In this document: positions 5,695-53,739 of the stretch, piece after piece
How positions within the stretch are numbered: the stretch's first letter is position 1
How the letters are laid out: every line of letters starts with the position of its first letter
IMG/VR virus record: IMGVR_UViG_3300046499_000358
Location: 1-60,122 of that record
Strand: one strand, 5' to 3'
DNA length: 60,122 nt
From: a virus
The notes under the pieces: model-generated
Told to the model about the DNA's origin: nothing
Database searches by the model: none
The model's input: only the letters and a program-made list of their open reading frames with translations
Program-made: the position numbers and the translations under genes

Positions 5695-6738
5695 ATGACC
5701 ACCCCTACCACCCAAACCCCGGCGTGCGCCCGATGCAATGGCGAAGGCGTCATCCATACCGGCATTGATGAGGCGCCCACGACTGTCTGCACCAAATGCG
5801 ACGGCACCGGAACCACCCAAACCCCGGACAGCAGCGCAACGACCGGCGAAGCTCCGTACCCCTACGACGCACTGTTCCGTGCCATCGGTGACGCGGTTTC
5901 CATCGGGCCGACACAAGCAAAATCAATCTCCGTCAAGCAGTTTGTAGAAACGCTTGCCGCCAAGGGCTATGTTGTCGTCGCAGCACCACAAGCAGCCATC
6001 CCATCGCTGGGAGGGCTGGACGAGCGGACGCTTGAGGCGGCGCTGGATGCGGAATACCCGTTGCCGAACAGTCCGCACGCATCGGTCAACGACCGAGCCC
6101 ATAACAATCGTTCCGCGTTTGAACGTGGCTGGCTGCGAGCATCCCGCGCCGCTCTCACCCAGCAAGCCGCGCCCGTAGCACCGGCCAGCGAGCAGCAGAC
6201 CAATCAGGCGCACGTATTGCCGCCCATGCGCGGCACCGGGGGCCAACACGATGCGAGCACATCGGTACTGACGCCCGAGCAGGCTATGCAGATAGCGGCA
6301 GAGCAGGACTACGGCGACGAGGACCCGAAGTGCATCATGCGCCTTGTCCGCGCCATCGAAGACGAGGTGCTTGCACAGTTGCGGCTGGCGGGTTCCGCGA
6401 AGGGCGGAAATACGAACGCCGAATGGGGAAAGTGCCAACTCTACCGAGGCGACAGCACTGCGGCCACCACGGCAAGCGCGAGCGGGCGCAAGGAAATGGA
6501 CATATGGAATGCTGGCGCGAAGGCTCTTGCTGACCACGCTCCAGCACCCAGCCGTTCGGCTGCACCGCAAACCGTCCTGACGCGCGAGATAGTCCATCGC
6601 ATTGATGACGAGGTTATGCATAAGCCGCGCGACTATTGCTGGAAGTTTGCGCGTGCTATCGAGGATTACGTGCGCGCCGCCCTTGCCCAACAAGGCGCAG
6701 CCCAGGCAACTAAACGAGGAGATGGCGGTGTCGACTAA
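5695..6738 (+). CDS. Modular early protein with DnaJ-type zinc knuckle
   Basis: A 347-residue protein. Residues 11-43 hold two CxxC-x-G-x-G knuckles (CARCNGEG and CTKCDGTG), the arrangement of DnaJ-type zinc fingers. A segment near residues 125-155 (DERTLEAALDAEY ... AFERGWLRAS) resembles phage early-protein modules. Then come the PPMRGTG-x-QHDA repeat and two copies of the LT-x-E ... RAIEDEVLA helical module related to the protein at 2280. The ATG at 5695 is chosen because GTGAGG precedes it; an in-frame ATG at 5629 lies inside the upstream gene. Function unknown. Confidence 0.6.
   Translation: MTTPTTQTPACARCNGEGVIHTGIDEAPTTVCTKCDGTGTTQTPDSSATTGEAPYPYDALFRAIGDAVSIGPTQAKSISVKQFVETLAAKGYVVVAAPQAAIPSLGGLDERTLEAALDAEYPLPNSPHASVNDRAHNNRSAFERGWLRASRAALTQQAAPVAPASEQQTNQAHVLPPMRGTGGQHDASTSVLTPEQAMQIAAEQDYGDEDPKCIMRLVRAIEDEVLAQLRLAGSAKGGNTNAEWGKCQLYRGDSTAATTASASGRKEMDIWNAGAKALADHAPAPSRSAAPQTVLTREIVHRIDDEVMHKPRDYCWKFARAIEDYVRAALAQQGAAQATKRGDGGVD
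6211..6265 (+). repeat. 55-base repeat, copy B
   Basis: Partner of 2301-2355, in the same reading frame relative to the encoded PPMRGTG peptide. The two copies differ at roughly ten positions. Confidence 0.8.
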
Positions 6739-17248: not shown

Positions 17249-17464
17249 CTACTGCGCTATCCTGCTGCCGTTGCTAATCGTCCAGCCGTCGCACGCGGCC
17301 CAGATGGTGCGGGCGCGGTCTTTCGGCTTTCGATACCACAGGCTCGCGCCCTCCAGCCCACAGGCGCAGATGATGCGCAATTCGTGGTAGTCGTCCTGCG
17401 TGCCCTCGTACAGGGTGGCCATGCGCCCGCACTGGCAGGGCAGGACCAGTGGTGCGGGGCTCAT
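17249..17464 (-). CDS. Small zinc-ribbon protein
   Basis: A 71-residue protein with CQC (residues 10-12) and CAC (residues 34-36) pairs and a Trp-rich C-terminal half, a minimal zinc ribbon. It begins at an ATGA overlap with the metallophosphoesterase gene. Its presence inside the virion block is odd; it may be a cofactor of its upstream neighbour. Confidence 0.5.
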   Translation of the reverse strand: MSPAPLVLPCQCGRMATLYEGTQDDYHELRIICACGLEGASLWYRKPKDRARTIWAACDGWTISNGSRIAQ

Positions 17465-18636
17465 GCTGCCGCCAGCATCGCCACATCGCAACGGTGTCTC
17501 TCGGTCTCGCCGTGCTCCTTGTGCAGCACGATCAGGCGCATGTCGCGTCCGGCGCGGTAGCCCTGGCCCGCGTGCCATGCATCGCGCGCGGCCAAGGTGC
17601 GGAAGTATTCGACCACGCCACCCCGGTATTCCTTGAGGTCCTGATGGTGTACGTGCCCGACATAGACGTAGCGGTGCGCGGTCGCGCCCCAGTCCTCGGG
17701 CCGGTCAGCCGCCATCACCGGCACCATGTCCGGCCCCTTGATCGTGTCGCCGTGGGTCGAGCCGATCAGCACCTTGCCGAAGCGGTAGTACCACATGGTA
17801 GCGGGCGACAGGTCAACTTCGATGCGCGGCTCGTTGTGGAAGTAGCAGGATAGCATCAGCGACAGCGCATAGGCCGAGTGGCCGTCATGGTTGCCGCGAT
17901 TGATCCGCAGGATGACTTTCTGGTGCTTTTCCAGCAGCCGGCGCGCGCAGTGGATCATCGCCATCAGGCCCACTTTCTGCACCTTGGCCCAGCGCCCGTC
18001 CACGTCGAGCTGGTGGCCGGACTGGCTCTGGTTCTTCTGGTTGTCGGCATGAAACATATCGCCAAGGTTCAGCAGCAGCGCGGTTGCGGCAGGCGGGGCG
18101 CTCGCCACCAGCCGGTCGACCGCGCCGCAGGTCAACGCCTCCGCTTTCTTGAGGTCGAAATCGTCGCCCGCGTCCTGCCACCACGCATGCATGCCGAAGT
18201 GCGGGTCGCCCATCGGGTACACGCACATCAGGTCGGCGTCGGCGCGCTTGGGTGGCTTGGTCAGCGGGGCCAGCCCCATCACGCCCAGCGCCAGGTCGGT
18301 CGCGGCTTCGCGCAGCAGTTCCAGTGCGCGCTCCTGATCGGGGCTTTGGCGCTCCCATGTGCGCTCGACTTCCCCCGCAGGCCCGCGCTGCACCGTGACC
18401 TTGCCCATGTTGAAGCCGGGAGCCACGCCATTGTCGAAGTGGCCGGGTGCGTAGCCCTGCCGCGCGGCCTGCGCCCTGACTGCCCGCACCGCCTTTTGTA
18501 CCGAACTCTTGGCCACTTTCAGGGCGCGCGCGGCGGCATGGTTCGAGCCGTGCTCGATGATCGCGGCAAGGTAGCGCGCCTGCCCTTCGTTGGCGTAGTC
18601 AAGCAGCTTGGGGTCTATCTTGACGGCTTCGGTCAT
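17461..18636 (-). CDS. Metallophosphoesterase with N-terminal helix-turn-helix
   Basis: A 391-residue protein. Residues 18-60 look like a helix-turn-helix (ARYLAAIIEHGSNHAAARAL then VAKSSVQKAVRAVRA). The rest is a calcineurin-like phosphoesterase: GDPHFG (143-148), LGDMFH (191-196), GNHD (248-251), then STHGD and GHVHHQ metal ligands. All five canonical motif sets are present, so it should be an active Mn/Fe/Zn phosphodiesterase or nuclease. The ATG at 18636 follows AGGAG. A DNA-binding phosphoesterase among tail genes suggests a role in DNA processing or in the virion. Confidence 0.8.
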   Translation of the reverse strand: MTEAVKIDPKLLDYANEGQARYLAAIIEHGSNHAAARALKVAKSSVQKAVRAVRAQAARQGYAPGHFDNGVAPGFNMGKVTVQRGPAGEVERTWERQSPDQERALELLREAATDLALGVMGLAPLTKPPKRADADLMCVYPMGDPHFGMHAWWQDAGDDFDLKKAEALTCGAVDRLVASAPPAATALLLNLGDMFHADNQKNQSQSGHQLDVDGRWAKVQKVGLMAMIHCARRLLEKHQKVILRINRGNHDGHSAYALSLMLSCYFHNEPRIEVDLSPATMWYYRFGKVLIGSTHGDTIKGPDMVPVMAADRPEDWGATAHRYVYVGHVHHQDLKEYRGGVVEYFRTLAARDAWHAGQGYRAGRDMRLIVLHKEHGETERHRCDVAMLAAA

Positions 18637-18667
18637 CAACGGCTCCTATGGAATGGCTGGACTTCGT

Positions 18668-33113: not shown

Positions 33114-34678
33114 CACCCTGCAACACTATCTAACGGGTTACTCATAATTGGCTTGGGTGGCACGAAGACTTTCTGCGCGCTCACCGGCACGGCAAAGGTC
33201 AGCATCAGCGAATCGGCGCGGTCGGGCGACTTGATGCCGCGCTTCTTGGCGTCGGCCTTTGCCTCGATCAGCCTCAGATTTGCCTTGAACTTGTATTTCA
33301 GCGCGGTCAGGTCGGTTTTCAGTTCCGGGTTGTTGGGCAGCGACACCGGCCCGTTTCTCAGCCAGTCAAGGCCATTCGCCCACATCTGCGCGCGCAGGTT
33401 GTAGTTCTCGCCGTCATCCACGATCAGGGACGAATTCACATCCACCACGATTGAGGCCGCGATAATCTGGCCCATGCCGTTGCGCGAATCCGGGTAAAAC
33501 ATGCGCAGCCGGTCGGCCACGCCCGAGCCCACGCCGATGGTGTCCACCGCGATTTGCTCGACGCGCTGGCCTGCCGCCTTGAATGCGTCCACTTCGTTCT
33601 TGACCTTCTGCGCCAGCGCCATCGTGTCCAGCCCGGAGAACACGCGCTGCCACAGCACCACCCGGCCACGGCGCGCGGTAATCGCGCTCTTGTCGTCGCC
33701 AAAGCGCGCCACGTCCACGCCCAGTTGCAGCGGCCCGACTGCTTCCACATCGGCCGGCCCAAGCCGCATCGCTGCTTCCACCAGCACGCCGGGGATGAAC
33801 GCATCGCCCATCGAGGCCGAATAGTCGATGTCGATTTCCTGCGCCACGATTACCGGGTCATCAATCTTCTCGACCTGCGCCTTGTACCAGTCATCGCCCT
33901 TCCTCGGGTCGTCGCGCCAGTTGAAGGTGAACACCTTCATCTTGCCGCCGTGGCGCTTGCGGTGGAACGGGTTGCCGGGTCCGTTCGGCGTGCTCACGCT
34001 CAGCTTGCAGTTGGCCGTTTGCGACAGTGCCGCGTCAATCGCTTCCGGGTGCTCCAGGAACGCAGCTTCATCCAGAAAGTACAGCGAGGCCCGGTTGCCG
34101 CGCCCGATGTTGCTGCCAGCCTCACCGATGATCGCGCTGCCGTTCTCCGGGTTGGTGATCTTCATGTAGGGCGCATGCTTCTTCTCGTCCCACCCTGCCG
34201 GACGGAACTCCACCGGCAGCAGGGCGATGAACTGGCGCACCTTCCAGAACAGCGACTTTGGGTCGCCAATCTTGTCGACGTACTCTTCCTTGCGCGAGCC
34301 GAAGCCCACGACCGTCCCGGCATGGAACAGCCACATCCATACCGCGAACGCCACGCATAGCCAGCTCACACCCATGTCGCGCGACTTCTCGGCTAAGCCA
34401 TCCTCTCGCCCCAGCCAGCGCGCCCGGCACCATTCGATGAACTCGGACTGCTTCGGGAACAGCAGGAACGGCACCACGGACGGCAGGCCAATTTCGACGT
34501 TACGCGGGTCGAACGTCATGCCCCAATCGTCTATGAAGGCAACCGGGTTATCCTTGTAGTACGCCTTCACCCCTTCCAGCAGTTCGGGATTCGCGCGCAG
34601 GTTTTGCAGCTTGCGCATGCGCTCCTGATAGACATGGGCGTAATCCGGTGCCCGGAAGTCGAACCCCTCCGGGATCAT
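33110..34678 (-). CDS. Terminase large subunit
   Basis: A 522-residue ATPase-nuclease that pumps DNA into the capsid. The Walker A variant is at residues 98-106 (EKSRDMGVSW, with R/K and G-x-S typical of TerL), Walker B at 199-204 (LYFLDE), and the nuclease domain begins near LGVDVARFGDDKSAI (about residue 320), where the acidic cluster binds metal. ATGA overlap with TerS. Confidence 0.92.
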   Translation of the reverse strand: MIPEGFDFRAPDYAHVYQERMRKLQNLRANPELLEGVKAYYKDNPVAFIDDWGMTFDPRNVEIGLPSVVPFLLFPKQSEFIEWCRARWLGREDGLAEKSRDMGVSWLCVAFAVWMWLFHAGTVVGFGSRKEEYVDKIGDPKSLFWKVRQFIALLPVEFRPAGWDEKKHAPYMKITNPENGSAIIGEAGSNIGRGNRASLYFLDEAAFLEHPEAIDAALSQTANCKLSVSTPNGPGNPFHRKRHGGKMKVFTFNWRDDPRKGDDWYKAQVEKIDDPVIVAQEIDIDYSASMGDAFIPGVLVEAAMRLGPADVEAVGPLQLGVDVARFGDDKSAITARRGRVVLWQRVFSGLDTMALAQKVKNEVDAFKAAGQRVEQIAVDTIGVGSGVADRLRMFYPDSRNGMGQIIAASIVVDVNSSLIVDDGENYNLRAQMWANGLDWLRNGPVSLPNNPELKTDLTALKYKFKANLRLIEAKADAKKRGIKSPDRADSLMLTFAVPVSAQKVFVPPKPIMSNPLDSVAGW

Positions 34679-35361
34679 TGCCCCAGCATCCGCTTGTAGG
34701 CTTCGTCCGGTGCCACATCAGCACCAGTCTCCTGTTCTTGCGGCTTGCCAGATTCCGGCGCCCCGACAATGCCGTAAGCCTCCCGCTCCAGCGCGATCAG
34801 CGTTTTCAAGGTGTCGGCCAGCTTCTTCATGCTGTCGATCCGCCCAACGCTGGAAATCACCTTGCGGTAAATGTCGTTGCGTGCATCGCGGCCCTTGTCG
34901 TCCTCGGCACGCAGCATTTCGCCTAGTTCCTCGAACAATGCCGGGTCGCCGGTTTCCGCCTCCAACTCCGACAGCAGCGCCATCGCCAGGCGACGGAAGC
35001 GCCGGATATCGTCCCGGTGCCCCATGCGTACATTGGCAATAACCTGCGCCGATGCCTCGACAACCTGACGCTCGGTTTCCACTTTTTCAGTGGCAACCAT
35101 CGCGGAAACCTCACGCTTGGCAACCATCGCGTCGGCCCGTGCTTTCACCTTGGCGTTCAGGTCACGGTCCCAGCCCTCGGCCTTGGCACGCTTGTTGATC
35201 GCGGTATGCGACAGGCCATGCTTTGCGCCGATCTCGCGCACCGACAGCACGCCGGCGCGGAAATCAATCTCAATGCGCTCCCAGTCGGAAGTCTTGCGGT
35301 CTACCTTTTGCTTTTCCCCGTCCTGCGCAGCCTTTCCGGCTTGCTTGTTATTGGTGGGCAT
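34675..35361 (-). CDS. Terminase small subunit
   Basis: A 228-residue protein. A basic N-terminal segment, then a helix-turn-helix (REIGAKHGLSHTAINKRAKAEGW, residues 42-64) for recognising the packaging site, then long charged helices (residues 70-190) for oligomerisation, and an acidic tail. The position just before TerL supports it. The HTH pattern REIG...LS.TAI..R is standard for TerS. Confidence 0.85.
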   Translation of the reverse strand: MPTNNKQAGKAAQDGEKQKVDRKTSDWERIEIDFRAGVLSVREIGAKHGLSHTAINKRAKAEGWDRDLNAKVKARADAMVAKREVSAMVATEKVETERQVVEASAQVIANVRMGHRDDIRRFRRLAMALLSELEAETGDPALFEELGEMLRAEDDKGRDARNDIYRKVISSVGRIDSMKKLADTLKTLIALEREAYGIVGAPESGKPQEQETGADVAPDEAYKRMLGQ

Positions 35362-36542: not shown

Positions 36543-36577
36543 AAATAAAATGCCCCGCGTCCAGCATGTGCCGGGGC
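36543..36577 (-). terminator. Intrinsic terminator-like hairpin
   Basis: Minus strand: GCCCCG, loop GCACATGCTGGACG, CGGGGC followed by ATTTTATTT. Second of two tandem hairpins between genes at 36723 and 36530. Confidence 0.55.
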
Positions 36578-36616
36578 GGGGCTACCTTCAGGGGAGAAGG
36601 AAAAGAAACCGGATGT

Positions 36617-36648
36617 AGAAAAGCCCGCGATCCTTGCGGGGCGGGCTT
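36617..36648 (-). terminator. Intrinsic terminator-like hairpin
   Basis: Minus strand: AAGCCCGC, loop, GCGGGCTT then TTCT. Perfect 8-base arms. First of two tandem hairpins; the pair encloses GCCCCTGAAGG and probably separates the lysis operon from packaging genes. Confidence 0.6.
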
Positions 36649-36969: not shown

Positions 36970-37374
36970 TCAGCACGCAATCCGGTTCTTCAGGATGCCG
37001 TGCAGCGCCTCCACCGCCTGCTCGAACTGGGCGTCGAAGTCGGCCCGCCATGCGCGCGCCTTTTGCAGCCCGTAGTGCAGCAGCACGGCTTCGCGCTGCA
37101 ACACCGGCAGTTCGTACACGGCGGTATGCACGGCGCGCACGGTGCGCTTGTCGGCCTCGATTTCCATGTCCTCGACCGAATGGATGCGCGCGTCAGGGGC
37201 ACCGATGCACTGGCGCGGGTAGTCGCGCGTTATGTTGCTGTCTTGTAGCATCCACTCGGCCCAGTGGTCCAGCCAGCCCTTGACGCGGGCCAGGTGCGCG
37301 CCGGTTGCAGGCGGCTGGGCGGGTACGACTGGTGCGCGGCGCAAGTTGCTGCCGTAGATTTCTGCCATGTTCAT
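36970..37374 (-). CDS. Putative late regulator, sigma-4/ArpU-like
   Basis: A 134-residue protein. The middle and end (RTVRAVHTAVYELPVLQREAVLLHYGL ... FEQAVEALHGILKNRI) have the shape of sigma-70 region 4-like phage regulators such as the ArpU/RinA group: ELP-x-x-Q-R-x-x-L-x-x-x-Y helix then a second helix. Such proteins usually control late transcription. The start ATG ATG-like at 37374 follows GGGGAGAAGC. Assigned from pattern only; it lies downstream of the proposed pR'-like promoter. Confidence 0.5.
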   Translation of the reverse strand: MNMAEIYGSNLRRAPVVPAQPPATGAHLARVKGWLDHWAEWMLQDSNITRDYPRQCIGAPDARIHSVEDMEIEADKRTVRAVHTAVYELPVLQREAVLLHYGLQKARAWRADFDAQFEQAVEALHGILKNRIAC

Positions 37375-37411: not shown

Positions 37412-37633
37412 CTATTCCTCGACCTCGATCCCCTTGACGCCCGGCAGGATCGCTTCGCGCAAGTAGCGCAGGATCGAGCGCGCATTGCCCAGCGCCTCGT
37501 ATTGCTTGGTGGTCACGCCCGGATAGCGCACCAGCCGCCCATCGTGGTAGCGCACGAACAGCGTGTTGTCGGCGTGGCCCACTTGCCGCACGCTGGAGGA
37601 ATCGACGGTAATCAGGGGCGGGATTTGGGTCAT
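37412..37633 (-). CDS. KTSC-domain protein
   Basis: A 73-residue protein. SSSVRQVGHADNTLFVRYHDGRLVRYPGV then a helix matches the KTSC domain (S-S-x-V/I-x-x-x-G-Y/H ... L-x-V/I-x-F/Y-x-x-G-x-x-Y-x-Y-x-x-V), a small domain at the C-terminus of some lysyl-tRNA synthetases and alone in phages. Overlaps the Rz stop by ATGA. Function of the free-standing form unknown. Confidence 0.75.
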   Translation of the reverse strand: MTQIPPLITVDSSSVRQVGHADNTLFVRYHDGRLVRYPGVTTKQYEALGNARSILRYLREAILPGVKGIEVEE

Positions 37634-38211
37634 GGGGTTGCGTCCACGGCAGTTTTCAGGGCGTCGTAACGGATAATGCAGGCTTGCAATCCGTCGAGGG
37701 CGGTGTTGCGGGTTGCCCGCACCCACTCAAGATCGCTTGCCACGCGGGGATCGAGAGTGGCGCTGCTTGCGCCGCTGCCCGAATCCACGGCTCCAGCGGT
37801 GGCGCTTGCAGCTTGTCCGCCCGCACCAGCTTGACTTGGGCCGGGGATGGCACGGATGAGCACCCGCTCGCGCTCAGTGCCAGCCAGCAAACGCTGCTGG
37901 CGGTCAGTAGAAATCGTTTTTTCATGGTCTACCTCGGCTTGAAGTTGGTCGACGCGGGCGCGCGCCGCATCCAGTTGGGCCTGCGCTTGCGCCACCAGCC
38001 GGTCCAGGCGCAGCCGTTCGGCCTCGGCCTGCGCGCTGCTGGCGGCGTCGAGCACATCGCGCCGGGATTTCTCCTGCGCCACGCCTTGTGCGAATACGCG
38101 GTGGTCGTGCCATGCGAGCGCTGCCCACAGGCCCAGCACCAGCGCGGCAATGCCGGCCAGTTTCGCGGCCCAGCTTGGAATGCCGTAGCGCAGCAGCAGG
38201 GCGGCGATCAT
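37630..38211 (-). CDS. Rz: Rz-type inner-membrane spanin
   Basis: A 193-residue protein with an N-terminal membrane anchor (residues 15-34, LAGIAALVLGLWAALAW) and a periplasmic coiled coil (residues 45-95, EAERLRLDRLVAQAQAQLD). Encloses the Rz1 gene in another frame. Forms the outer-membrane disruption complex with Rz1 in the last step of lysis. Confidence 0.85.
   Translation of the reverse strand: MIAALLLRYGIPSWAAKLAGIAALVLGLWAALAWHDHRVFAQGVAQEKSRRDVLDAASSAQAEAERLRLDRLVAQAQAQLDAARARVDQLQAEVDHEKTISTDRQQRLLAGTERERVLIRAIPGPSQAGAGGQAASATAGAVDSGSGASSATLDPRVASDLEWVRATRNTALDGLQACIIRYDALKTAVDATP
37656..37925 (-). CDS. Rz1: Rz1-type outer-membrane spanin lipoprotein, nested in Rz
   Basis: An 89-residue protein entirely inside the Rz gene in a different frame. 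MKKRFLLTASSVCWLALSASGC has a basic start, hydrophobic core and lipobox ending at Cys22. The mature part is Pro/Ala-rich. The nesting is the classical Rz/Rz1 arrangement, so it is probably the lipoprotein partner. Confidence 0.85.
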   Translation of the reverse strand: MKKRFLLTASSVCWLALSASGCSSVPSPAQVKLVRADKLQAPPLEPWIRAAAQAAPLSIPAWQAILSGCGQPATPPSTDCKPALSVTTP

Positions 38212-38438
38212 TTGTGCGCCAGGTCGGCGGTCGTCTTGAAACGCAACAGCAGGTTGCCCACGATCAGCACCACCATCGCCTTCTGGAACAGGTCGGCGGG
38301 GATATAGGGCTGGAGCTGCGGGAAGCTGTCCTGCGCCAGCGGCAGCCCACCGATCAGCATGCCACACCAGACGTTGAAGTGGATGGTCCACGAGCGCCAT
38401 GCGCCCTTGAGCTTGTCGATCATTGCCTGTCCTTTCAT
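38208..38438 (-). CDS. Putative holin
   Basis: A 76-residue protein with hydrophobic segments near residues 20-33 (FNVWCGMLIGGLPLA) and 50-64 (AMVVLIVGNLLL), ending with a basic-to-charged tail. It overlaps its neighbours by ATGA on both sides between endolysin and spanin genes. A two-span small protein in a lysis cassette is the standard holin picture. Confidence 0.6.
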   Translation of the reverse strand: MKGQAMIDKLKGAWRSWTIHFNVWCGMLIGGLPLAQDSFPQLQPYIPADLFQKAMVVLIVGNLLLRFKTTADLAHK

Positions 38439-38596
38439 CCAACCACGAGATCGTCAGCAAACCCCATCGCCCACAGCCCGACGAACGCTAGCAGGTAGCA
38501 GGGCTTCCAGAGGAAAGACAGCAGCCAGCCGAGCGCCATCAGCGGCACGGCGAACCAGAAGGTCAGGGCGATGCGGATCACTTTGCGTATGGTCAT
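38435..38596 (-). CDS. Small two-span membrane protein of the lysis cassette
   Basis: A 53-residue protein overlapping the endolysin stop and the next start (ATGA each). Hydrophobic at residues 8-28 (RIALTFWFAVPLMALGWLL) and 34-50 (CYLLAFVGLWAMGF). May be a holin, antiholin or second membrane factor; which of the three membrane proteins here is the holin cannot be decided from sequence. Confidence 0.55.
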   Translation of the reverse strand: MTIRKVIRIALTFWFAVPLMALGWLLSFLWKPCYLLAFVGLWAMGFADDLVVG

Positions 38597-39051
38597 GCGA
38601 GTTGTCCTCCTGCTTGGGTGTATGCCGCGCGCAAGTCGGCAAGGCGGTTTTCATGCTGGCCATAATTAGCACCGGGCAGCGAAGCCCAACGGCTCTTGCA
38701 TAGGCTGATCGCCTCATCGAAGCGCCCGGCTTCCACGGCATCGAGCGCATGGCATTCACGGATAAGTTGGGTAGCCCACTTGTCTTGCGCAGCGGGGCCG
38801 AAGTCGGGCAGGTTCAGGCTTTGCTTGTAGGCCAGCCAGTAGCGGCCCATGAACTGGTAGCGCCCGGCCGCATCCGAATTCAGCGCATCGCAGCGCAGGC
38901 GCGGGTGCATCGCATACGAGCGGAACAGGATCGGGTGCTCAGGGGTCGATCCGACACAGACGTTGTAGCCGTTGTCCGACACCGACAGCAGGCGCGGCCC
39001 CAGCTCGGATGCGGCGATGGTGTCGAGGAATGCTTTCAGGTTGGGGGCCAT
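38593..39051 (-). CDS. Lambda R-type endolysin (GH104 lytic transglycosylase)
   Basis: A 152-residue protein close in length and pattern to lambda R: KAFLDTIAASELG with the catalytic Glu16, DNGYNVCVG, SDAAGRYQFMGRYW, DFGPAAQDKWA, then IRECHALDAVEAG and WASLPGANYGQHE. Cleaves the MurNAc-GlcNAc bond. It has no signal peptide, so it needs a holin. Overlaps neighbours. Confidence 0.92.
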   Translation of the reverse strand: MAPNLKAFLDTIAASELGPRLLSVSDNGYNVCVGSTPEHPILFRSYAMHPRLRCDALNSDAAGRYQFMGRYWLAYKQSLNLPDFGPAAQDKWATQLIRECHALDAVEAGRFDEAISLCKSRWASLPGANYGQHENRLADLRAAYTQAGGQLA

Positions 39052-39053
39052 GC

Positions 39054-39314
39054 CTACCTCGTCGGCAAGTGCTGCACCAGCCATGCCAGCCCGGCGCCAG
39101 CCGTCGAAGCGGCCCCACCCACCACCATCAGGGTGCGCCAGCCGCCGCGCGCCTCCGACAGGGTAATCAGCACTTGGTCGAGCTTGGCGGTCAGTTGCTG
39201 ATTGCTCTCTTGCAGGTCGGCCATGCCCTGCGTCAGGTTGCCCACCTGCACTTCCAGTCGGGCAATGTTGATGCGCGCCGTTGCCAGCGCCTCGGCATGG
39301 GCCAGGTCGCTCAT
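39054..39314 (-). CDS. Coiled-coil single-span protein, lysis-related
   Basis: An 86-residue protein with an N-terminal coiled coil (residues 8-50, ARINIARLEVQVGNLTQGMADLQESNQQL) and one C-terminal membrane span (residues 62-82, RTLMVVGGAASTAGAGLAWLV). This is the XhlA-like or class III holin-partner shape. First gene after the proposed late promoter-terminator pair. Confidence 0.55.
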   Translation of the reverse strand: MSDLAHAEALATARINIARLEVQVGNLTQGMADLQESNQQLTAKLDQVLITLSEARGGWRTLMVVGGAASTAGAGLAWLVQHLPTR

Positions 39315-39376
39315 TGCCGGCATCCGGTCGGCTGGGTCGGGTGTTTGAACATGGCCTTGGCTTTCGGTCGCTGGTT

Positions 39377-39415
39377 AAAAAAAAGCCCCGTCGCACCGGG
39401 GAAAGGCGATGGGGC
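39377..39415 (-). terminator. Strong terminator just after the late promoter (tR'-like)
   Basis: Minus strand: GCCCCATCGC, loop CTTTCCCCGGT, GCGACGGGGC with one mismatch, then eight T. About 115 nt after the predicted start of the promoter at 39500-39528, and before the lysis genes. Confidence 0.88.
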
Positions 39416-39499
39416 GCTGGAAAGACAACAGGGAGAGAGAGCATGCGCTAGATCAAATCTCCACACCGGACTATGTGATCTGGCGCACGGACAGGACCG

Positions 39500-39528
39500 A
39501 TGCTATGTGCTCTATTACGAATTGTCAA
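39500..39528 (-). promoter_or_regulatory. Consensus sigma-70 promoter before the lysis genes (pR'-like)
   Basis: Minus strand: TTGACA (39523-39528), exactly 17-base spacer, TAGCAT (39500-39505). The -35 box is perfect. It lies directly after the stop of the gene at 39532. Confidence 0.75.
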
Positions 39529-39873: not shown

Positions 39874-40100
39874 ACGATTCTCCCTTGATATTGTCGTTGG
39901 TCGTCTTCTGCGATGCGCAGCCATGCATGGGCGCGCGCCTGTTCTTGCTCGGTCAGGAACGGCAGTGCGCCATAGACCTGCTCGATGCGCATCCGTATGC
40001 CCAGCGCGCGGGTGCAGGCCGCATGCGGGTTCGGCGGGGGCAGCGGCATCAGCAGCAGTTCGAGCGAGCTGGTGCGGCTCATTTCCGGGTTGGCGGTCAT
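39846..40100 (-). CDS. Hypothetical protein
   Basis: An 84-residue protein, helical at the end (FLTEQEQARAHAWLRIAEDDQRQYQ) with a proline-rich start. It overlaps both neighbours (ATGA upstream, 28 bases downstream). No family recognised. Confidence 0.45.
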   Translation of the reverse strand: MTANPEMSRTSSLELLLMPLPPPNPHAACTRALGIRMRIEQVYGALPFLTEQEQARAHAWLRIAEDDQRQYQGRIVWQEDPARA

Positions 40101-40402
40101 GCGGTGCCCGCTTCGTTAAATTGGGCCTGATCGATGTTGTCCCCGTTTTCGTCTTCCCATTCGCACCAGTCTGGCTCGTCAACGTCTTCGCCCGGCCCAT
40201 ACTGCTGGAAGCACTCCAGCCCGCCCGCGTTGGCGTAATCCGGCTTGATCTTGTGCGCGAGTTGGAACAGATCATACTGCGCCAGCACGTCAAGGATTCT
40301 CTTGCCCTCGACCGGCGTTGCGACCGGCACATGAAACGGTGTTCCGGGGATTTGCGGAATCCACCATACGCGCAGGTCGCCTTGCTTGGGATTTGTTTTC
40401 AT
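40097..40402 (-). CDS. Conserved-type phage protein, WIPQIPG...PVA pattern
   Basis: A 101-residue protein. RVWWIPQIPGTPFHVPVATP, then KRILDVLAQYDLFQLAHKI and KPDYANAGGL resemble a conserved small protein of many temperate phages of enterobacteria and pseudomonads, function unassigned. Acidic tail (EDVDEPDWCEWEDENGD). Starts behind GAGGAGAAGAACC with a CAACAACGAG leader. Confidence 0.55.
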   Translation of the reverse strand: MKTNPKQGDLRVWWIPQIPGTPFHVPVATPVEGKRILDVLAQYDLFQLAHKIKPDYANAGGLECFQQYGPGEDVDEPDWCEWEDENGDNIDQAQFNEAGTA

Positions 40403-42838: not shown

Positions 42839-42867
42839 AATATATGCCAAACTTCCATATACGTAAA
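42839..42867 (-). promoter_or_regulatory. Predicted sigma-70 promoter
   Basis: Minus strand: TTTACG (42862-42867), 17-base spacer, TATATT (42839-42844), in a strongly AT-rich island. It would start transcription about 45 bases before the gene at 42787 and lies just after a terminator. Confidence 0.65.
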
Positions 42868-42917
42868 GATGTATTTGATTTTCTTCAAATTGATACGGAA
42901 CAGTGTTGTATTTGCGC

Positions 42918-42955
42918 AAAGAAAAGCGCCGCGCTCCTGCATGGATACGCGGCGC
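42918..42955 (-). terminator. Intrinsic terminator
   Basis: Minus strand: GCGCCGCG, 14-base loop, CGCGGCGC, then TTTTCTTT. Perfect 8-base arms. Ends transcription of the gene at 42976. Confidence 0.85.
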
Positions 42956-52784: not shown

Positions 52785-53089
52785 TCGTCGCCCGGTTTGT
52801 AGTGCTTCTCGATCAGATCCCGGCACACCACATCGCAGCCGCGGCGCAGGATTTCCAGATACGAAATACCACCCGGCACGCTGTTCTTGCACCACGTTGC
52901 CATTGCGTACAGTTCGGGCGTGAAGGTGAAGTTAATCGACTTCTTGCCCGCGCTCAGGTCTTGCCACGGGTGCAGCGGTTCTGTGCTGTGCTGTGCAATG
53001 CTGTGCGCATCGGTCTGCACCTTGGCCGCGTCCACGAATTCCGCAGCGGCGGGCGTGAGGCGGAACCTGTTGTTCTTGCGCTCGCTCAC
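52781..53089 (-). CDS. Small ParA partner (possible centromere-binding protein)
   Basis: A 102-residue protein starting GTG in a GTGA overlap with ParA. NNRFRLTPAAAEFVDAAKV, then KSINFTFTPELYAMATWCKNSVPGG, then ISYLEILRRGCDVVCRDLIEKHYKPGDE. The beta-strand INFTFT followed by helices is compatible with a ribbon-helix-helix, as in small plasmid partition partners. Not a classical ParB. Overlaps the Ref gene. Confidence 0.45.
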   Translation of the reverse strand: MSERKNNRFRLTPAAAEFVDAAKVQTDAHSIAQHSTEPLHPWQDLSAGKKSINFTFTPELYAMATWCKNSVPGGISYLEILRRGCDVVCRDLIEKHYKPGDE

Positions 53090-53739
53090 TGGTAAATCTC
53101 CTGTTCCAGCGCCAGCATTTCCTCGATGGCCTTGCGGGTGAACTCGTCCACCGGGTATTCCACCACGCCCAGCCCGTCGCGCAGTGCATGCCGGAACGCC
53201 TTGCGCAAGCCGATCACGGTATCCAATAACGTCAGGTGCTCGAAGCCGGCGCAGAACTCGCGCATTTCCAGCAGTTCGGCGCCTGCGTGGTTCGGGACCA
53301 TCGTCGCGAACAAATAGGCGTGCAGGGCGCGGTTCTCGATCTTGGCGCGGCCGATCAGAGAATTGACGTGCTCCAACGTTTCCACATCCGCCTGGCTGGG
53401 CGCGCACGGGCACAGCGCGATATCGGCCAGCATCAGGGCAACCCGCATTCCGTCCGAATCGGCCCCGCCCGTGTCGAGCAGGATGTGGTCGTAATCGTCT
53501 GCGTGCCGTTCGAGGAATTCGAGCAGGCCGCGCGCCGTCACTTCGCGCACTTCGATGGCCGGTTCGGTCTTGTCTTCGCGCCGGCGCTGGCCCCACTTGC
53601 GGGTGGTGCCCTGCGGGTCGAGTTCGGCCAACAGTACCCGGTAGTCGCGCCGGGCGAGCTGCACCGCGAAGTTCTGGATGGTGGTGGATTTCCCTGTGCC
53701 GCCTTTCTCTGCTGCTGCGGCTGTAATCTTTGCTGACAA
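53086..53739 (-). CDS. parA: ParA-type partition ATPase
   Basis: A 217-residue protein with deviant Walker A EKGGTGKST (residues 11-19), a switch I region LLAELDPQGTTRKWG (DPQ at 41-43), and switch II HILLDTGGAD. Length and pattern are those of small plasmid/phage ParA proteins. TTG start behind CAGGGAGAAACAG. It suggests active segregation of an extrachromosomal form. Confidence 0.8.
   Translation of the reverse strand: MSAKITAAAAEKGGTGKSTTIQNFAVQLARRDYRVLLAELDPQGTTRKWGQRRREDKTEPAIEVREVTARGLLEFLERHADDYDHILLDTGGADSDGMRVALMLADIALCPCAPSQADVETLEHVNSLIGRAKIENRALHAYLFATMVPNHAGAELLEMREFCAGFEHLTLLDTVIGLRKAFRHALRDGLGVVEYPVDEFTRKAIEEMLALEQEIYQ

Follow-up and report, generated by a model that had tools for sequence, protein, structure and literature searches.

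The window analysed here is the whole of virus record IMGVR_UViG_3300046499_000358 (60,122 bases), in which a predicted promoter and a predicted terminator follow one another directly ahead of a lysis cassette. What does this pair do, and which protein, if any, would carry RNA polymerase past it? The promoter, P1 (39500-39528), is of the sigma70 type and has 10 of 12 consensus matches, with TTGACA from 39528, a spacer of 17 nt and TAGCAT ending at 39500. The terminator, T1 (39377-39415), is predicted as intrinsic: a GC-rich hairpin at about 39415-39386 precedes 8-9 T at 39385-39377, and the 31 nt before the U-tract have an MFE of -16.6 kcal/mol. Both lie on the minus strand, as do the gene beside P1, the lysis genes, the Q candidate, the second promoter-terminator pair and terS, all described below. 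The predicted P1 start is at about 39493, from where 107 nt lead to the U-tract, so that an RNA of about 115 nt is predicted. No plausible gene was found between P1 and T1, and the ORFs crossing this region look like frame accidents. An earlier note on this DNA had described TTGACA-17-TAGCAT, a strong U-tract terminator, a gene-free interval and then the lysis cassette, and we confirm this layout with its coordinates.

To evaluate how easily such a pair could arise by chance, we searched 60 dinucleotide shuffles of the 60-kb minus strand for a promoter of at least 10/12 with a strong terminator within 200 nt, and no pair was found; taken singly, 0.95 such promoters and 0.12 strong terminators are expected per shuffled strand. 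A single promoter of this kind is no rarity over 60 kb; what is rare is its pairing with a terminator inside a gene gap. When the gap holding P1 was shuffled, a 10/12 promoter appeared in 0.65% of cases and one with a perfect TTGACA in 0.1%, figures valid for this gap alone in a genome with many gaps. P1 is probably a real promoter, and on the minus strand between 36400 and 40700 no good sigma70-type promoter was found other than P1 and the P2 described below.

Concerning relatives of the P1 region at the DNA level, only fragments of endolysin and exclusion genes were matched; the gene at 40100-40402 is related to the GP17 superinfection exclusion family (PF17420, 5.7e-21). P1-T1 was not found in phages with close terminases, where the upstream regions differ, and two of these, L003 and L004, have their own promoter-terminator pairs ahead of the packaging genes. 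In L003, the phage with the closest terminase, a small HTH gene is followed, 13 nt on, by a promoter-terminator pair (6369-6663).

The leader between P1 and T1 folds better than its shuffles (z -3.4) and contains a 12-bp inverted repeat with one mismatch and a 20-nt loop (39444-39487; z about -3.2 as an RNA hairpin), a shape that would suit a regulatory small RNA composed of a 5' hairpin and a terminator. We consider such a role improbable, since nine inverted repeats comparable to this one occur in the window, while an Rfam search gave no match and no relatives were available for covariation. The sequence CACATAG occurs twice, at 39509 and 39477, and is a weak candidate for a pause sequence resembling a -10 element near the start of the transcript.

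The gene upstream of P1 (39532-39873) ends 3 nt before the -35 element and does stand in what the earlier note called the Q position; many Q genes likewise adjoin their promoter. Its product, 113 aa long, is predicted to be helical and has a basic tail with the motif GRPRK, and such a short protein might be a novel kind of antiterminator, loading at P1 and opening T1. No family match was obtained in Pfam, PHROGs, NCBIfam or PADLOC, however, and no Q signature was found. Homologues were absent from phage records, from 295 bacterial genomes and from viral contigs, where the negative is weak evidence of absence because the scan uses exact short peptides, and hence no conserved tie to any promoter-terminator pair was seen. 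A fold search with its structure model, which is of low confidence, also gave no significant match. We judge it quite unlikely that this protein opens T1, and its identification as a known Q was dismissed for want of a family match or homologue. From the reading of the locus as similar to lambda pR'-tR', the order of promoter, terminator some 100-200 nt on and lysis genes therefore stands, the short terminated RNA is its natural prediction and antitermination of late genes is likely, but the neighbouring gene is neither a recognisable Q nor, with no homologue or family found, a supported antiterminator.

The lysis cassette that follows T1 opens with a gene at 39054-39323 (real start probably 39314, judged by homologues) which we take to be XhlA-like, no library match having been obtained; its homologues, at 67-86%, are in L179, L180, L182-L184 and L197. 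It is followed by an endolysin (38593-39051; phrog_90, E 3.1e-44), a holin (38208-38438; phrog_1356, PF25612), an Rz spanin (37630-38211; phrog_2466, E 1.7e-8) with a nested Rz1 at 37925-37656 and homologues in related loci, and a KTSC-domain protein (37412-37633; PF13619, E 2.7e-10). We compared this module with 43 viral loci encoding endolysin relatives. The six closest of them, L179-L184, carry a terminator 278-315 nt upstream of the endolysin (T1 at 334 nt), in the position of T1 directly before the XhlA-like gene or its equivalent, against a background of 0.17 terminators per kb in related endolysin loci. Among the other loci, terminators are found at scattered positions or not at all, and L197, which has the closest holin and Rz, possesses no such terminator before its cassette. 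No good promoter adjoins this terminator in any of the six. The layout is thus shared with related phages in its terminator but not in its promoter, from which it follows that T1 is probably a part of the lysis module and travels with it, and that P1-T1 is not necessarily a pR'-tR' unit.

The same promoterless cassettes could be explained if T1 closed the early operon and guarded the lysis genes, P1 being a chance match (about one promoter of its score is expected per 60-kb strand) and a termination-resistant polymerase arriving from upstream. This explanation is possible but, in our opinion, doubtful, since, in the right gap, a perfect TTGACA at a spacing of 17 nt is as rare in local shuffles as reported above, and transcription running in from the early genes would switch the lysis genes on early.

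The gene preceding the terminator in L179-L184 looks, by eye, late structural or of peptidase type. An exonuclease-like gene is found in the window at 17461-18639 (phrog_704), and a similar gene comes after the lysis cassette in these six loci, suggesting that the cassette was relocated in the window phage, apparently to a place before Q. Among 30 records of phages with related lysis cassettes, a search for the Q family described below returned a single marginal partial match.

A far better candidate for Q than the gene beside P1 lies behind the lysis genes, at 36970-37374, and encodes 134 aa; with its accompanying control element it is 2-3 kb beyond P1-T1, beside the genes for DNA packaging; the earlier note had called it ArpU-like and mentioned it as an alternative. 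Its product is 33% identical over 75 residues (E 1e-3) to the annotated antitermination Q in MW202481.1. Q proteins comprise the Q21, lambda-Q and Q82 families (PMC7171158). The candidate has no match to the lambda-Q family in Pfam and none to PF06530 (Q21) even at E 10, and a relative in MT375522.1 reaches 16.4 bits with PF06530, below the cut-off of 26. When a profile of the wider family (A2) was aligned by hhalign with five PF06530-search hits, of which three are over the cut-off, the probability was 86% with a pairwise E of 5e-6, in the N-terminal W..W..GYP part; a profile of the close relatives (A3, the window-type subset) gave 2% against the same hits. The structure model (pLDDT 69) gave no significant match in a fold search, sigma region 4 included (SigR region 4: TMt 0.56 but E 5.5), and nothing significant was found in the PDB by sequence search with the Q profile. 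We take the product for a probable distant branch of the Q21 type and only a putative member of PF06530.

Its setting, on the other hand, is Q-like. A promoter-terminator pair is present within about 560 nt downstream in 46 of 57 distinct Q-family loci, compared with 54 of 953 other ORF ends in the same loci, although neither this count nor the dyad count given below is made of independent cases, because the Q-family relatives are related to one another. In many of these loci TTGACA begins at the Q stop codon, and in EBPR podovirus 1 the Q relative is directly before terS with a promoter-terminator pair between. Proteins 55-59% identical to the candidate are encoded at seven loci in bacterial genomes from the family of a Herbaspirillum assembly. 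Five of the seven (four distinct) carry TTGACA-16-TAGAAT 1.2-2.0 kb downstream of the Q relative and then a terminator hairpin, which in L152 and L154/L155 was not flagged by the terminator scan and was called from reading the sequence; this promoter was not seen in L156 and L157. Inspection of three of the bacterial loci showed the promoter and hairpin to be followed by an HNH gene and packaging genes.

A second pair of this kind, absent from the earlier note, is present in the window (36736-36545), 238 nt past the Q-candidate gene and about 1.2 kb before the terminase small subunit gene (terS, 34675-35361; phrog_1206, E 3.9e-70) of the downstream late operon, with a small gene between the candidate and the promoter. 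The predicted promoter, P2 (36708-36736), is TTGACA-17-CAAAAT with a weak -10, and two terminators are predicted after it, T2a (36620-36645; 36640-36624 in the scan) and T2b (36545-36580, U-tract at 36551).

Most leaders of the Q family share a short inverted repeat from 6-11 nt past the -10, with arms such as TGGG/CCCA, TGGA/TCCA, AGGCA/TGCCT, GGAC/GTCC, GGGC/GCCC, CGGG/CCCG and others. It occurs in 33 of 40 Q-family leaders, in 11 of 767 other promoter-like sites of the fetched DNA and in 2.4% of shuffled leaders, counts that describe rather than test the element, because it was seen by eye first, the settings were chosen afterwards and many leaders are close relatives. The only held-out case is the window itself. 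With an nhmmer model built without window sequence, the best site in the window was 36712-36678, at P2 (E 0.011; next best, E 2), where the dyad TGGGC-8 nt-GCCCA stands just past the -10; P1 gave no site and has no dyad at the family position. We call the element a dyad rather than a hairpin because RNAalifold predicts no consensus structure. The recognisable leader of the Q candidate is therefore P2-T2, before terS, and not P1-T1.

It could still be supposed that Q acts at P1 as well: some leak through T1 would produce Q, Q would open T1, and the lysis proteins and Q would rise together in a self-amplifying operon. Q does lie in the operon behind P1-T1 without another good promoter, and P1 and P2 have in common TTGACA and, four bases after it in the spacer, GTAAT. 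The shared GTAAT by itself has an estimated chance of about 1%. In the prophage leaders, nevertheless, the dyad hardly changes, whereas the spacers vary and are without GTAAT, and it is the dyad that is missing from the leader of P1. We regard an action of Q at P1 as rather unlikely.

The reading that we prefer, with somewhat better than even confidence, is that of two leaders, in which P2-T2 would be the Q leader and P1-T1 a gate on the lysis genes and Q, its T1 deriving from the lysis module. If the predicted elements work, Q would load onto polymerase near P2, probably through the leader dyad, and the Q-bearing polymerase would read past T2 and on into the genes for packaging and structure. 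T1 would be the guard terminator of the lysis module, keeping stray transcription from lethal genes; most P1 transcripts would stop there as the short RNA, and the lysis genes, with Q behind them, would be expressed solely through read-through. This might come from leak, from Q, from the neighbouring protein or from polymerase modified upstream. Since Q sits behind the lysis genes and T1, its early synthesis would call for leak, for a promoter that went undetected or for some further factor. We give only a slim chance to a more specific version, in which P1-T1 gates lysis plus Q and P2-T2 gates structure, the Q family reads the dyad at the very beginning of the transcribed region rather than the spacer, and a different protein opens P1.

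Among known systems, lambda Q/pR'/tR' is resembled by P2-T2 too, in having an antiterminator gene upstream of a late operon, but in the window the Q candidate is behind the lysis genes and before terS. The resemblance to phage 21 Q (Q21, PF06530) consists of a short Q, the W..W..GYP-like N-terminal pattern, distant profile similarity and a promoter-terminator pair downstream; the candidate differs in being under the Pfam threshold and in having as conserved feature a dyad after the -10. In phage 21 the QBE is a 6-bp direct repeat between -35 and -10 (PMC6606751), and by-eye inspection found no direct repeats of this type in the P1 and P2 spacers. AlpA of Pseudomonas aeruginosa, a promoter-loaded protein unlike Q, opens a terminator directly before lysis genes (PMC7969949). 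T1 is also directly ahead of lysis genes, a likeness of layout, and the AlpA site differs in lying in the promoter spacer. In the open-access literature we found nothing pertinent on a leader dyad of this kind or on a guard terminator of lysis genes.

From these observations comes a model of late control that can be tested in a little-studied group of phages, with a probable Q21-like branch beneath the standard family thresholds, whose shared leader dyad may be its loading site, and with an unusual gene order that places the lysis genes before Q. They also advise caution, because a terminator before lysis genes and beside a promoter does not always make a pR'-tR' unit.

Elsewhere in the window, a very stable terminator-like hairpin (about -22 kcal/mol) is found at 42926 (42839-42926), with a promoter-like TTTACG-17-TATATT just downstream. 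The gene at 53086-53739 encodes a ParA-like partition protein (phrog_164), possibly for plasmid-like maintenance.
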